Positions 12,591 to 63,962 of a DNA stretch of 64,000 nucleotides are shown one piece after another (the stretch's first letter is position 1; each line of letters begins with the position of its first letter). Source of the DNA: Thermodesulfobacteriota bacterium. Its GTDB lineage: Bacteria; Desulfobacterota; GWC2-55-46. The notes below the pieces were generated by a model that worked only from the letters and a program-made list of their open reading frames with translations, was not told the origin of the DNA and did no database searches. The translations under genes and the position numbers were made by a program. The stretch covers positions 1,004,744 to 1,068,743 of the forward strand of contig CP129479.1 of assembly GCA_030583865.1 (NCBI GenBank), written 5' to 3'.

Positions 12591-13607
12591 ATGCAGAAAA
12601 ACTGGCGTGAACTTATCAAACCGAAGAAGTTGGAGGTAGAGAAAGACACGCTTACCCCGACGTACGGCAAATTCGTCGCCGAGCCGCTGGAAAGGGGCTT
12701 CGGCGTGACGATAGGTAACGCCCTCAGGAGGATACTCCTTTCCTCGCTGCAGGGAGCGGCGATAACCTCAGTGAAGATAGACGGCGTGCTGCACGAGTTC
12801 TCCTCGATCCCCGGGGTCAAGGAGGACGTTTCCGATATAATACTGAACTTGAAGCAGGTAAAGCTCAAGCTCCACGGCGAGGGCCCCAAGACCCTGAGGA
12901 TCAAGTCCAACGGCGAGGGTGTGCTCACCGCAGGCGACATTATAACCGATGCCACGACGGAGGTCCTGAACCCCGCGCAGCACATTGCCACCGTTTCCAG
13001 GGACTCGAAATTCGACTGCGAACTGGCCGTCAGCACCGGCAAGGGATACGTGCCTTCCGAGAGGAACAAGCTTCCAGAGATGCCGATAGGGACCATTCCC
13101 ATCGACTCGGTATTTCAGCCGGTGAGCAGGGTGAACTTCAACGTGACCCACGCCAGGGTGGGGCAGAGGACCGATTATGACAAGCTCGTCCTCGAGGTAT
13201 GGACGACAGGCGCCATAGACCCGCAGAGCGCGGTCGCGGTCGCGGCCAAGGTCCTCAAGGACCAGTTGAGCGTCTTCATAACCTTCGAGGAGACCGAAGA
13301 GGCCCCTTCGGAGAGGGGCGAGGGAAAGCCCCAGTTCAACGAGAACCTCTTCAAGACCGTGGACGAGCTCGAGCTTTCAGTGAGGTCGGCAAACTGCTTG
13401 AAGAACGCCGACATAAAATACATCGGCGAGATGGTCCAGAAGAGCGAGCAGGAGATGCTCCGCACCAAGAACTTCGGGCGGAAGTCCCTGAACGAGATAA
13501 AGGAAATACTCCGCGGCATGGAGCTCGATTTCGGCATGAAGCTCGATAACTTCCCGTCGAGGAAAGATCTCGACGCCATGCATTCGGAACACAAGGAAAC
13601 CGCCTAA
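12591..13607 (+). CDS. rpoA: RNA polymerase alpha subunit
   Basis: Alpha dimerises to start core polymerase assembly. Its C-terminal domain binds UP elements and activators. The 338 residues include '[30 protein letters not shown]' and '[20 protein letters not shown]' (N-terminal domain), a linker, and the alphaCTD '[23 protein letters not shown]' with '[14 protein letters not shown]'. The stop is followed immediately by a dispersed repeat that separates rpoA from rplQ. Confidence 0.98.
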
Positions 13608-13608
13608 G

Positions 13609-13760
13609 GGGCTGTTGAAAACTCAAAATCACATTCAGGCTGTTCAAAAAGCTCAAGATGCCAGGAGTCAAAAAATGAGGAATGAGGCGTACTTTTTTGT
13701 ACGTCGGAGTGTCCAATTTTGAAGACGACTCCGCAGATTGGGCTTTTTCAGCAGCCTGCT
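13609..13760 (-). repeat. Dispersed intergenic element, core 1, copy A (reverse)
   Basis: Reading on the minus strand it begins AGCAGGCTGCTGAAAAAG and ends with GAGTTTTCAACAGCCCC, with a central hairpin GTAC...GTAC and the inner motif GAGCTTTTTGAACAGCCTGA. Other copies occur at 23745, 43338, 50204, 56665 and 60731. It starts 2 bases after the rpoA stop and fills the space before rplQ, splitting the alpha operon without coding anything recognisable. Confidence 0.85.
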
Positions 13761-13774
13761 AAGGGGATTAAGTA

Positions 13775-23744: not shown

Positions 23745-23904
23745 GCAGGCTGCTGAAAAAGTCCATCTGAGTCGAAGCTACGTCGTTCATAACTCCGGCG
23801 TACACGAAAAGTACGCCTCATTCCCCGCTCCCCTGTTCCAACCGGGCCTCGCGTCTGGAGCTTTTTGAGCAGCCTGAATAAAAACGGAGTTTTTCAGCAA
23901 GCTG
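23745..23904 (+). repeat. Dispersed intergenic element, core 1, copy B
   Basis: It begins GGCAGGCTGCTGAAAAAG, has the central hairpin GGCGTAC-ACGAAAA-GTACGCC, then GAGCTTTTTGAGCAGCCTGA and ends GAGTTTTTCAGCAAGCTG. It is in the forward orientation, about 80 bases after the ADH stop, and fills most of the 347-base gap before the ABC-F gene. No gene is seen in the rest of that gap. Confidence 0.9.
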
Positions 23905-43298: not shown

Positions 43299-43337
43299 GC
43301 AAACCGGATTTATTGCCGGAATGACAAAAACCCCGGT

Positions 43338-43457
43338 CAGGCTGCTCAAAAGCCCAGGATGCAAGGAGTCGACAAGATGAACGGGCGTACCTTCATTGTT
43401 CGGCGGAGTTTCCAATTTCAAGACGACGCCTGAGGCGGGCTTTTTCTGCGGCCTTTA
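43338..43457 (-). repeat. Dispersed intergenic element, core 1, copy C (degenerate, reverse)
   Basis: On the minus strand it reads GGCCGCAGAAAAAGCCC at the start and ends at GCTTTTGAGCAGCCTG, with the middle diverged. It lacks the outer arm. Its edge touches the TAA stop of the minus-strand gene at 43455. With the adjacent terminator it fills the gap between two convergent transcription units. Confidence 0.75.
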
Positions 43458-49785: not shown

Positions 49786-50205
49786 ATGAGCGTAAGGCGA
49801 AAGGCGCGGGAGACCGCCCTGCAGATACTCTACAAGACCGACATCTCTGAGGGCAGGGCCGGAGAGGACCTCCATGAGCTCGACTCCCTAGTCGCAGGCA
49901 CCGAGGCAAGGCGGTACTGCGAAACACTCGTAAGCGGCATAGACGCGAAGCGTGACGAGATCGACGCCGTAATCGAGAGGCATTCCGAAAACTGGACCGT
50001 CGAGCGCATGGCCGTGGTAGACAGGAACATCCTCAGGATAGCGGTCTACGAGCTAATGCACTCCGGGGACGTCCCCTACAAGGTCGCCATTGACGAGGCC
50101 GTGGAGCTCGCGAAACTCTACGGCACCGAGGAGTCCGGGGCCTTTATAAACGGCATAATAGACAAGGTAAGAAAGAGCCTGGGGAAAAAGCCCCCGGGAA
50201 CATAG
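49786..50205 (+). CDS. nusB: Transcription antitermination factor NusB
   Basis: NusB binds boxA RNA with S10 in rRNA antitermination. The 139-residue all-helical protein includes 'MSVRRKARETALQILYKTD' and 'DRNILRIAVYELMHSGDVPYKVAIDEAVELAKLYGTEESGAFINGIIDKV' (in pieces). Its TAG stop (50203-50205) is the first three bases of a dispersed element (TAGCAGGCTGCTGAAAAG), so the C-terminus may have been reset by that insertion. Confidence 0.95.
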   Translation: MSVRRKARETALQILYKTDISEGRAGEDLHELDSLVAGTEARRYCETLVSGIDAKRDEIDAVIERHSENWTVERMAVVDRNILRIAVYELMHSGDVPYKVAIDEAVELAKLYGTEESGAFINGIIDKVRKSLGKKPPGT

Positions 50206-50352
50206 CAGGCTGCTGAAAAGTCCATCTGCGTCGTTGTCATCGGCGCTCGTCACTGCGGCGTGCACAAAAAGCACGCCTCATTCCTCGCTCCTTGACGCCT
50301 CCATATGGAGCTTTTTGAGCAGCCTGAAAAGAATCCGAGTTTTTCAGCAAAA
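50204..50352 (+). repeat. Dispersed intergenic element, core 1, copy D
   Basis: It begins TAGCAGGCTGCTGAAAAG (first bases = nusB stop) and ends GAGTTTTTCAGCAAAA. The central hairpin is GGCGTGC-ACAAAAA-GCACGCC, with A-T replaced by G-C on both arms relative to copies B and E. It fills half of the 317-base gap before the aminotransferase gene. Confidence 0.9.
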
Positions 50353-56664: not shown

Positions 56665-56825
56665 AGCAGGCTGCTGAAAAAGCCCATCTGCGTCGAAGGC
56701 TACGTCGCTGGACACTCCGGCGTACACAAAAGTACGCCTCATTCCTCGCTCCCCTGCTCCTAATGGGGCCTCGCATCTGGAGCTTTTTGAGCAGCCTGAA
56801 TAAACGGAGTTTTTCAGCAAGCTGT
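56665..56825 (+). repeat. Dispersed intergenic element, core 1, copy E
   Basis: It begins AGCAGGCTGCTGAAAAAG, has hairpin GGCGTAC-ACAAAA-GTACGCC, then GAGCTTTTTGAGCAGCCTGA and GAGTTTTTCAGCAAGCTG. It is close to copy B in sequence and lies immediately downstream of rubrerythrin. Confidence 0.92.
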
Positions 56826-59854: not shown

Positions 59855-60013
59855 TTAGCAGGGTGTTGAAAACTCCCTGCCAGGCAATCCACGGATGGAT
59901 TGCCAAATTGCGAAGACTATCCAGGTCGAGCAATTTGTGAGGCTTGGACGGATTCATTCCGGCCAGGCCGTGGTTGAAAAAGTCCAGGAAGGACTTTTTC
60001 AACATCCTGTTAG
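59855..60013 (+). repeat. Dispersed element, core 2, copy G
   Basis: It begins TTAGCAGGGTGTTGAAAA and ends TTTTCAACATCCTGTTAG; the two ends are inverted repeats of each other (about 15 of 18 match). The middle (GCAATCCACGGATGGATTGCC..., CCAGGTCGAGCAATTTGTG...) is shared with the copy at 61906 in the opposite orientation. Confidence 0.9.
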
Positions 60014-60049: not shown

Positions 60050-60730
60050 GTGTTTGATGTGAAAAGATTAAAAAAATCAGCCAGGATACTCTTCTTCCTT
60101 TCCGCCGCCGTCCTCCTTGTAATCATGTTCACGCCGGTCCCGAACATGCTTGCAAGGCCCCTTGTCTTAAGCGGGCCCGCGCCCTCCGGGGCCGGTCTTA
60201 TTGCCGTCCTTGGCGGGGGCGCGTACCCGAACGGCGCCCTCGGCTCGTCCTCCAACGAGAGGCTTATAAAAGGGGTCCTACACTATAAGCGGGGCCACGC
60301 CGGGAAGATAGTCTTTACCGGCGGCATGGTTGAGGGCGCCTTGGGGAAGCTCGGGAACACGGTACTCGGGGCGCGCCCCGCAGAGCCCCTGCCGGAAGCA
60401 TCCATCATGGGCGATATAGCCCGCGAATTCGGCATACCCCCGGAAGACCTGGCAATCGACCGGGGCTCGTTAAACACCTACGAGAACCTGATGTTCGTAA
60501 AGGCCTACATGGAGGAAAATGGGCTCAAGACAGTCATGATAGTCACCTCGCCGACTCACATGAAAAGGGCTTCGCTCGTCGCTCAGAAGCTCGGGCTCGC
60601 ATATATCCCGGCGCCCGTAGAGGACAACACCCCCTATCGCACCTCGGCTATAGACAGGCTGGCGCTTACGCGGGAGGTGATGTGGGAGTATCTGGGGATT
60701 GCGCTCTACAGGGCCAAGGGGTATATCTGA
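60050..60730 (+). CDS. DUF218/YdcF-like membrane-anchored protein
   Basis: It has 226 residues. One N-terminal TM ('ARILFFLSAAVLLVIMFTPV') precedes a DUF218 domain: 'LIAVLGGGAYPNGALGSSSNERLIKGVLHYKRGHAGKIVFTGGM' (in pieces), 'EFGIPPEDLAIDRGSLNTYENL' and 'VMIVTSPTHMKRASLVAQKLGL', all typical. The domain faces the periplasm. Related SanA/ElyC proteins affect envelope integrity. GTG 60050 or 60059 is the start. It lies between two inverted copies of the dispersed element. Confidence 0.85.
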   Translation: MFDVKRLKKSARILFFLSAAVLLVIMFTPVPNMLARPLVLSGPAPSGAGLIAVLGGGAYPNGALGSSSNERLIKGVLHYKRGHAGKIVFTGGMVEGALGKLGNTVLGARPAEPLPEASIMGDIAREFGIPPEDLAIDRGSLNTYENLMFVKAYMEENGLKTVMIVTSPTHMKRASLVAQKLGLAYIPAPVEDNTPYRTSAIDRLALTREVMWEYLGIALYRAKGYI

Positions 60731-60894
60731 CAGTGCAGTGCTGAAAAAATCGTCTGCGTCGAAGGCTACGCCGCTTGACACTCGGCGTACACGAAAAGTA
60801 AGCCTCATTCCTCGCTCCCCTGTTCCAATTTGGGGCTCGCACGTGGAACTTTTTTGAGCAGCCTGGAAAAATTGAGTTTTTCAGCAAGCTGATA
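60731..60894 (+). repeat. Dispersed intergenic element, core 1, copy F
   Basis: Forward. It begins CAGTGCAGTGCTGAAAAA directly after the DUF218 stop and ends GAGTTTTTCAGCAAGCTG. The central arm is CGGCGTACACG / AAAGTAAGCC with one mismatch. The pattern is otherwise that of copies B and E. Confidence 0.88.
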
Positions 60895-61857: not shown

Positions 61858-61905
61858 GACGCGTTTCCAATCTTCGCAGCGGCCCGGAATGAAATCCCGG
61901 GCCCT

Positions 61906-62063
61906 ATCAGGATGTTGAAAGAGTCCTTCCTTGATTTTTCAGCCAAGGCTTGGCCGGAATGAATCCGTCCAAGCCTCACAAATCGCTCGACTTGGATAGT
62001 CTTCGCAATCTGGCAACCCATCCGTGGATTGACTGGCAGGGTGTTTTTTTCAACACACTGCTA
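61906..62063 (-). repeat. Dispersed element, core 2, copy H (inverted relative to copy G)
   Basis: Read on the minus strand it begins TAGCAGTGTGTTGAAAAA (the TAG is the stop codon of the carboxyltransferase gene) and ends CTTTCAACATCCTGATAG. Its core repeats that of copy G. Copies G and H are inverted, ~1.9 kb apart, and flank the DUF218 and AEC genes. Confidence 0.9.
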
Positions 62064-63962
62064 TTCCTTCTCGACCTCCATGAGGGTCTCATCCGGGTTC
62101 ACGGAATCGCCTATCTTTACGAGCACCTTCTTAACGACTCCGCTTATCGGGGTGTGCACCTCGTTCTCCATCTTCATGGCCTCGACCGTAAGGACGGTGT
62201 CGCCCTCAGAGACCTTGCTCCCCACGCTCACCTTTATTGACGTGACCTTGCCGGGGATGGGGGTCGTTACGTCCCCTTCCTTTTTGGCTTTGGGCCTTAT
62301 GGACTGGGTGATGGAGGAGCGCTCTATCTCGCCGGCGGTCGTGGGAATGACCTCGGTGAGGGACTCTATCATCACCTCTTCGAGCTTGCCGTCTATCGAG
62401 ATGAAGAACGGCCTCTTGCCCTCGACCCTGTGCCCGGCGCCAGCGACCTTTATCTTGTAGTTCTCGCCGTGGACCGTGACGTTGAATTCGCTGGGCGCGA
62501 GGTGGGGGGCCGTATGCCCCGCGTCCGCAGCGGGCTGGAATTCCTCTTCGAGCGGCTCGGGCTCGAGCTTCCCGTTGTCCCTCTGCTCGAAGAACTCGAG
62601 CGCGACCATGGGGAAAAGGGCGTAGGAGAGGACGTCCTCTATGGACTTGGCCTTCCCGTCTATGTCCCTCATGACCTTGTCGAGCTCGGGCTCGAGGAGG
62701 TCAGCCGGCCTGCAGGTGATGGGCTTTTCGTCGCCTATGGCGAGCTTTCTCGCGGTCTCGTCTATCTGGCCCGGAGGGTTCCCGTAGAGGCCCTTGAAGT
62801 AGTTCCTGGTTTCGCTCGTTATGACCTTGTACCGTTCGCCCATGAGGACGTTCAGGGTAGCCTGCGTGCCCACTACCTGGCTCGTCGGGGTGACCAGCGG
62901 CGGAAACCCCATGTCCTTCCTTACCTTGGGTATCTCCTCGAAGACCTCGTCCATCTTGTCGAGCGCGTTCTGCTCCCTGAGCTGGTTCGCGAGGTTCGAT
63001 ATCATGCCGCCGGGAATCTGCACCACGAGCGTCTTCGGGTTTATGGCCGTGTACTCGCTTTCGAACTTCTTGTACTTCCTCCGTATGTCCCTGAACCTGT
63101 CTGCTATCTCGGCCAAAAGCCCGAGGTCGAGGCCGGTGGAATATGGCGAGCCGTTGAGCGCCGCGACCATGCTCTCGGTCGGCGGCTGCGAGGTCCCTGA
63201 CGCCAGCGACGATATCGCGGTGTCGACTATGTCGGCCCCGGCCTCTATGGCCTTCAGGTAGCTCATGGACGCGAGGCCCGAAGAGTCGTGCGAGTGTATG
63301 TGTATGGGGAGGGTTACCCTGGCCCGCATCTTCGTGACGAGGTCAAAGGCCGCAACCGGCGTAAGGAGCCCGGCCATGTCCTTTATGCAGATGGTGTCGG
63401 CCCCCATCTTCACAAGCTTCAATGCCAGGTCAACGAACCCCTCGTGCGTGTGCACCGGGCTAGTGGTGTAGCAGATGGTCGCCTCCACTATGGCCTTCGC
63501 CTCCTTGGCGGCGCGGACCGCGACATCGATGTTCCTCATGTCGTTCAGGGCGTCGAATATCCTGAATACGTCAATCCCGTTCCTAGCGGCCCTCTCCACG
63601 AACTTCTTCACCACATCGTCGGAATAGTGCCTGTAGCCCACGAGGTTCTGGCCGCGCAAGAGCATCTGGAGCCTGGTGTTGGGTATGGCCTTCCGGAGGA
63701 GCTTGAGCCTCTCCCAGGGGTCTTCCTTGAGGAAACGGAGGCACGAGTCGAAGGTGGCTCCGCCCCAGGCCTCGAGCGACCAGTACCCGACCCTGTCCAG
63801 CATGGAGGCGACCTCTATCATGTCGGCGGTCCTCATCCTGGTGGCGAGGAGGGACTGGTGGGAGTCCCTGAGGATCGTGTCGGTTATCCACGTCCTCTTG
63901 TCGGTCCTCGGCTTGATCTTGAAATCCGCCCTGGAAGCGGCGGTTGCGGTCTTTTCAGCCAT
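62061..63962 (-). CDS. oadA: Pyruvate/oxaloacetate carboxyltransferase with biotinyl domain
   Basis: The carboxyltransferase moves CO2 between biotin and pyruvate/oxaloacetate. It has 633 residues: HMGL-like TIM barrel ('WITDTILRDSHQSLLATRM' near residue 25, 'HIHSHDSSGLASMSYL'), a conserved PYC_OADA region, then a C-terminal biotinyl domain with 'EAMKMEN' (K597). Same architecture as OadA/PycB. As no OadB/OadG is present, it may be pyruvate carboxylase subunit B with its biotin carboxylase outside the window. The TAG stop is part of repeat copy H. The last 38 bases of the window upstream show no feature. Confidence 0.93.
   Translation of the reverse strand: MAEKTATAASRADFKIKPRTDKRTWITDTILRDSHQSLLATRMRTADMIEVASMLDRVGYWSLEAWGGATFDSCLRFLKEDPWERLKLLRKAIPNTRLQMLLRGQNLVGYRHYSDDVVKKFVERAARNGIDVFRIFDALNDMRNIDVAVRAAKEAKAIVEATICYTTSPVHTHEGFVDLALKLVKMGADTICIKDMAGLLTPVAAFDLVTKMRARVTLPIHIHSHDSSGLASMSYLKAIEAGADIVDTAISSLASGTSQPPTESMVAALNGSPYSTGLDLGLLAEIADRFRDIRRKYKKFESEYTAINPKTLVVQIPGGMISNLANQLREQNALDKMDEVFEEIPKVRKDMGFPPLVTPTSQVVGTQATLNVLMGERYKVITSETRNYFKGLYGNPPGQIDETARKLAIGDEKPITCRPADLLEPELDKVMRDIDGKAKSIEDVLSYALFPMVALEFFEQRDNGKLEPEPLEEEFQPAADAGHTAPHLAPSEFNVTVHGENYKIKVAGAGHRVEGKRPFFISIDGKLEEVMIESLTEVIPTTAGEIERSSITQSIRPKAKKEGDVTTPIPGKVTSIKVSVGSKVSEGDTVLTVEAMKMENEVHTPISGVVKKVLVKIGDSVNPDETLMEVEKE

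Follow-up and report, generated by a model that had tools for sequence, protein, structure and literature searches.

Repeats bordering nusB and an oadA-type gene in a Thermodesulfobacteriota genome adjoin stop codons that belong to the genes themselves

In the window analysed here (64,000 nucleotides, positions 1004744–1068743 of a complete 2.75-Mb Thermodesulfobacteriota genome), short repeats directly follow the stop codons of nusB and of an oadA-type carboxyltransferase gene. The TAG or TAA at the repeat edge is the stop codon of the target gene itself, lies within a 4-bp target-site duplication, and does not belong to the repeat sequence. The repeats fall into 2 families, F1 (represented by copy D at nusB) and F2 (represented by copy H at the carboxyltransferase gene), which have their ends in common and differ in their interiors. 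We consider it highly probable (about 0.93) that both families are non-autonomous MITEs of an IS5-family insertion sequence, that their 4-bp target duplication preserves the gene's own stop, and that insertions within genes have been lost.

Stop codons and target-site duplications

The nusB reading frame ends in KPPGT and TAG, followed directly by CAGGCTGCTGAAAAG on the side of copy D, and the carboxyltransferase/biotin-carrier frame ends in MEVEKE and TAG, followed by CAGTGTGTTGAAAAA (Table 1). The earlier note had correctly located both TAG codons next to copies D and H, and had raised the possibility that the repeats had shifted these stops. Comparison with repeat-free orthologs in congeners revealed that NusB ends at the identical residue position in G004 (KPPGT, then TAG) and in G005 (KPPGA, then TAA), and that OadA ends in MEVEKE followed by TAG in G005, G001, and G004 and in EKE followed by TAA in G002 and G003. 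Since the orthologs without the repeat finish at the identical residue by stops of their own, no stop has been shifted. Copy A, a third stop-adjoining copy of the window that had previously been missed, adjoins the ORF at 12591–13607(+), the C-terminus of which is HKETA followed by a stop both here and in G005.

Table 1. Repeat copies, adjoining genes, and target-site copies in the window (positions are those of the window)
Feature	Positions	Strand	Remark
CTAA, target-site copy	13604–13607	+	contains the TAA stop of ORF 12591–13607
Copy A, F1 MITE	13608–13758	-	at the TAA stop of the adjoining + strand ORF 12591–13607
CTAA, second target-site copy	13759–13762	+	far side of copy A
F1 MITE	23746–23904	+	not at a stop
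Degenerate F1 relic	43317–43455	-	
nusB ORF	49786–50205	+	139 aa; neither truncated nor extended
ATAG, gene-side (left) target-site copy at nusB	50202–50205	+	last base of the final codon and the gene's own TAG
Copy D, F1 MITE	50206–50352	+	right end decayed
F1 MITE flanked by TTAG/TTAG	56667–56824	+	downstream of a stop, not at one
F2 MITE flanked by TTAG/TTAG	59859–60009	+	site empty in G005; copy present in G001
F1 MITE, left end decayed	60734–60891	+	just past the TGA of ORF 60050–60730
ATAG, far-side target-site copy at copy H	61904–61907	-	spare second stop
Copy H, F2 MITE	61908–62060	-	stem-loop, z -4.2
ATAG, gene-side target-site copy at copy H	62061–62064	-	holds the OadA TAG stop
oadA-type carboxyltransferase/biotin carrier ORF	62061–63962	-	633 aa

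The copies are flanked at both ends by a 4-bp direct repeat, which is mostly YTAR, with TTAG and CTAA the commonest, and the trinucleotide that precedes CAGG varies (TAG, TAA, TAT, TGA, and TGG). Of the 37 copies that have TA at both edges, 29 have matching bases ahead of TA and 28 have matching bases behind it. Perfect 4-bp repeats flanked 22 of 83 intact copies, compared with a mean of 6.8 and a maximum of 16 in 1000 shuffles; at least 3 of the 4 duplicated bases were kept in only 46 of the 83 copies, a proportion that counts against the mechanism proposed here. A first reading, in which a palindromic element end was combined with a duplication of TA only, fitted 2 of the 37 copies and was rejected, as both flanking bases match.

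Empty sites in G005 were found for (i) copy A (CCCC-TTAG-GCGG, minus strand); (ii) copy H (GAAGGAATAGGGGCC, that is, GGA-ATAG-GGGCC, against GGAATAG, the element, and ATAGGGCCC in this genome); and (iii) the F2 copy at 59859 (TTT-TTAG-AGACG). In all three, the filled site equals the empty site plus the element plus 4 bp, and the tetranucleotide of the empty site stands on both sides of the element. For copy D, the right junction of which is decayed, we infer the 4-bp duplication from the other copies. Some copies with TGA as the gene-side stop have TAA on the far side (197011 and 560088), as would be expected if a gene-side TAA had drifted to TGA under selection to remain a stop.

In the mechanism that we propose, a cut-and-paste DDE transposase would insert F1 and F2 at 4-bp targets, mostly YTAR, and duplicate the 4 bases. 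A TAA or TAG stop together with its preceding base makes NTAR, often YTAR, so that part of the insertions would fall on stops, where insertion would duplicate the stop and be neutral to the gene. The gene-side copy of the duplication is the original stop, which leaves the protein unchanged, and the far-side copy is a spare, free to decay. Insertions inside genes would be removed by selection, and copies would remain between genes and at gene ends. Where an element duplicates 4 bp at YTAR (or NTAR), a stop codon is a self-healing landing site, preserved by the duplication, and annotators should take such stops neither as element-derived nor as truncations.

Placement of the copies relative to genes

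The sample comprised 103 copies whose left end could be read, taken from stretches of this genome (about 309 kb). In 31 of them (21 at the left end and 10 at the right), the in-frame stop of a coding ORF lay exactly at the repeat edge; gene calls came from a simple codon score, so that the counts may be wrong by a few. The histogram of offsets to nearby coding ORFs had 30 at the exact repeat edge and no more than 5 elsewhere. Thirty loci of the sample had been picked with a TAG-containing pattern, and a recount by hand on flank-blind copies, which were defined by whole-element similarity, placed 19 of 71 copies exactly at an in-frame stop. The pattern recurs outside this genome: among 56 gene ends near copies in five congeners and another genus of the family, 10 were exact, and no other offset had more than 3. 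The stop adjacency of the copies is far above chance.

What the earlier note had made of the overlap is supported in part. The note had held that orthologs ending at the same residue by a stop of their own would reduce the overlap to chance; the orthologs do end in this way, yet chance is not the reason for the overlap, since the insertions had the stop codon as their target. The genome-wide count of stops that it had proposed is given above, and these stops adjoin the repeats without being supplied by them. Its suggestion that insertion exactly at the 3′ end is harmless, and that this explains the placement, holds insofar as the genes are intact and no copy lay inside a gene (0 of 103, though 58% of the YTAR sites in the window are coding), but not insofar as it derived the stop from the element. 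Purifying selection is the probable cause of this distribution of copies.

Two other explanations of the stop codons were weighed against these data. If the TAG were part of the element end, which the earlier note had read as TAGCAGG, the element would bring a stop and shift the end of the host reading frame; this would account for the TAG or TAA before CAGG in most copies, including copies away from genes. The flanking trinucleotides vary, however, and recur on the opposite side as a direct repeat, and an element-borne stop is refuted at oadA and ORF 12591–13607 by the empty sites in G005 and at nusB by the same-residue ends in G004 and G005; we regard it as highly improbable. It is also unlikely, although conceivable as an addition to the MITE mechanism, that stops are preferred beyond YTAR or that selection favors a stem-loop after the stop (through termination or mRNA 3′-end protection). 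Consistent with such an addition, 27–30% of all copies are at stops, against 14.5% of the noncoding YTAR sites of the window; copies are over-represented in convergent contexts (21 of 100 against 6 of 70); and copies such as D and H form long stem-loops with z about -4 (a single one in copy D, z -4.1). MITEs form stem-loops anyway, however, and among insertions that lie at a stop or up to 60 nt past one, the share at the stop itself (46%) was not above the 38% expected from YTAR availability (P 0.20). Divergent (promoter) gaps are under-used. Target availability and selection against damage therefore suffice, and no stop-codon targeting is needed.

Element families and their mobilization

F1 and F2 are about 147–158 nt long and contain no transposase gene. 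Each element starts with CAGG(C/G)TG(C/T)TGAAAA and has an inverted copy of this end at the other side, finishing in CTG. Both families are multicopy, with 40 scored copies of 146 candidates for F1 and about 30–40 copies for F2. Two F1 copies 5 kb apart (genome 2173634–2173793 and 2178585–2178743) have the right flank AAAATTGATATTTTCCCCTAACCG in common, which suggests a local duplication that included the flank. A third palindromic repeat, R3, of ~140 nt with ends AGGCAACCTCTAAAAATTG, occurs, for example, at genome positions 583253–583395 and 808105–808247 and at about 20338 of the window, and its CTAA harbors several nested F1 copies. Taken as an internal empty site, R3 fits insertion at CTAA (e.g., at 1686245), where an A-run makes the length of the duplication ambiguous.

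When GTDB genomes and viral contigs were scanned for TAR followed by the end sequence, they yielded full-length insertion sequences of 1.3–1.5 kb with F1/F2-type ends on both sides and a transposase reading frame in each, namely, L180 (flanks CTAG/CTAG), L228 (CTAG/CTAG), L255 from Sphingopyxis (CTAA/CTAA), and L263 from Methylophaga (TTAG/CTAG). The terminal CAGG(C/G)TG(C/T)TGAA.. is common to these 4 and to L185. The proteins of L255 and L263 scored 270 and 243 bits, respectively, against the NCBIfam IS5 model NF033581 (cut-off 140), and both contain DUF772 and DDE_Tnp_1 domains. The end YTARCAGGSTGYTGAAAAA is found across many phyla, including Proteobacteria, Acidobacteria, Nitrospirae, Chloroflexi, and others, and, with a preceding TAR, also in IMG/VR viral contigs.

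Neither an IS5-family transposase nor a DDE_Tnp_1 domain was found in this genome (G000) or its genus. At the family level, DDE_Tnp_1 gave 4 weak hits (L161–L164), of which the 2 checked (L161 and L164) are without F1/F2-type ends, and the only intact relative at the class level (L317, 49% identity) is imperfect in both its ends and its flanks. These results count against the proposed mechanism. As a partner transposase in the same genome is usual for MITE status but does not define it, F1 and F2 can best be regarded as orphan IS5-type MITEs; in G000–G005, with many MITEs and no detected IS5-type or DDE_Tnp_1 transposase, the mobilizing elements seem to have been lost. We infer the mobilizer from other taxa, and an IS5-type transposase would have acted on F1 and F2 in trans. 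A likely transposase family can hence be named for an orphan repeat whose ends recur in many bacterial phyla.

Two other modes of mobilization were considered. A MITE of the IS630/mariner type would duplicate TA and regenerate a stop with its first base, and TA is indeed central in nearly all flanks; but the duplication spans 4 bp and not TA only, no DDE_3 transposase was found in this genome or the related genomes tested, and the full-length insertion sequences with F1/F2 ends encode IS5-type proteins, which leaves this origin extremely doubtful. Likewise, we see hardly any likelihood that F1 and F2 are REP elements that a single-strand RAYT/Y1 transposase mobilizes, even though one Y1_Tnp gene is present in this genome, several congeners have one, and the orientation of F1 follows replication, as is known for single-strand transposons (PMC5371812). 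As far as the passages on REP/RAYT elements in 2 papers go (PMC3733652, PMC2817692), F1 and F2 resemble these elements in being short, palindromic, intergenic, and high in copy number. They differ from them, on the same passages, in lacking the GTAG tag and in having inverted ends and 4-bp duplications; moreover, F1/F2 copies are absent from the surroundings of the Y1_Tnp gene, which lies amid its own, separate GTAG-tagged GTGCGC repeats, and F2 is without orientation bias. Single-strand transposition is not known to generate such inverted ends and 4-bp duplications. The single RAYT (Y1 transposase) gene of the genome (L157, 1413–2001, minus strand; genome 1702622–1702987) stands beside its own GTAGGGTGCGCTGTGCGCACC repeats, and genes related to it occur in congeners G001 and G002.

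The IS5-type assignment can be set against described elements. The ends of IS5 (GG..) differ from those of F1 and F2 (CAGG..). IS5 of Escherichia coli and its family have in common with F1 and F2 the 4-bp YTAR duplication, which is the published target duplication of IS5 elements (PMC10359306, PMC5493358), whereas F1 and F2 have no transposase, either within the elements or elsewhere in the genome. MITEPsy1 of Pseudomonas syringae, of 100 nt, with ends GGAAGGTCTGAAAAAGCC, six copies, and a likely origin from ISPsy2, is, like F1 and F2, a short IS5-type MITE, and it inserts at and duplicates CTAG or YTAA; unlike for F1 and F2, no placement at stop codons is reported in the passages of the paper that were available (PMC3189936). 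QMITE2 of Coxiella burnetii resembles F1 and F2 in that it lies at the 3′ end of the enhC gene, where it alters or follows the stop; however, it supplies 33 C-terminal residues in one strain (PMC5896051), whereas F1 and F2 leave the protein end unchanged. Literature searches on the F1/F2 end sequences and on insertions within stop codons found nothing relevant.

Orientation of F1 with replication

The mechanism proposed above for the IS5-type MITEs is ordinary, and the orientation bias of F1 is more surprising. With the origin placed near 2.59 Mb and the terminus near 1.24 Mb from GC skew, 56 of the 60 F1 copies identified by an interior pattern have the leading strand as their sense strand, a result unmatched in 20,000 shuffles; the orientation counts leave out pattern listings that favor the + strand. 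Among F1 copies of a BLAST-ranked set that lie in tandem contexts and antisense to both neighbors, 6 of 7 still agree with replication. F2 has no such bias (16 of 31). Large contigs of G001 and G005 have runs in which 6 of 6 copies lie on the same strand.

Orientation bias linked to replication and the beta clamp is described for several transposon families (PMC5371812). Tentatively, F1, unlike F2, may insert or survive nearly only in one orientation relative to the fork, independent of the direction of neighboring genes, and something inside F1 could couple a double-strand DDE transposition, or its retention, to fork direction. F1 and F2 differ in this respect although their ends are similar and their targets are of one kind. 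In the window, the F1 copies at 23746–23904, 50206–50352, and 56667–56824 are examples of the orientation pattern.
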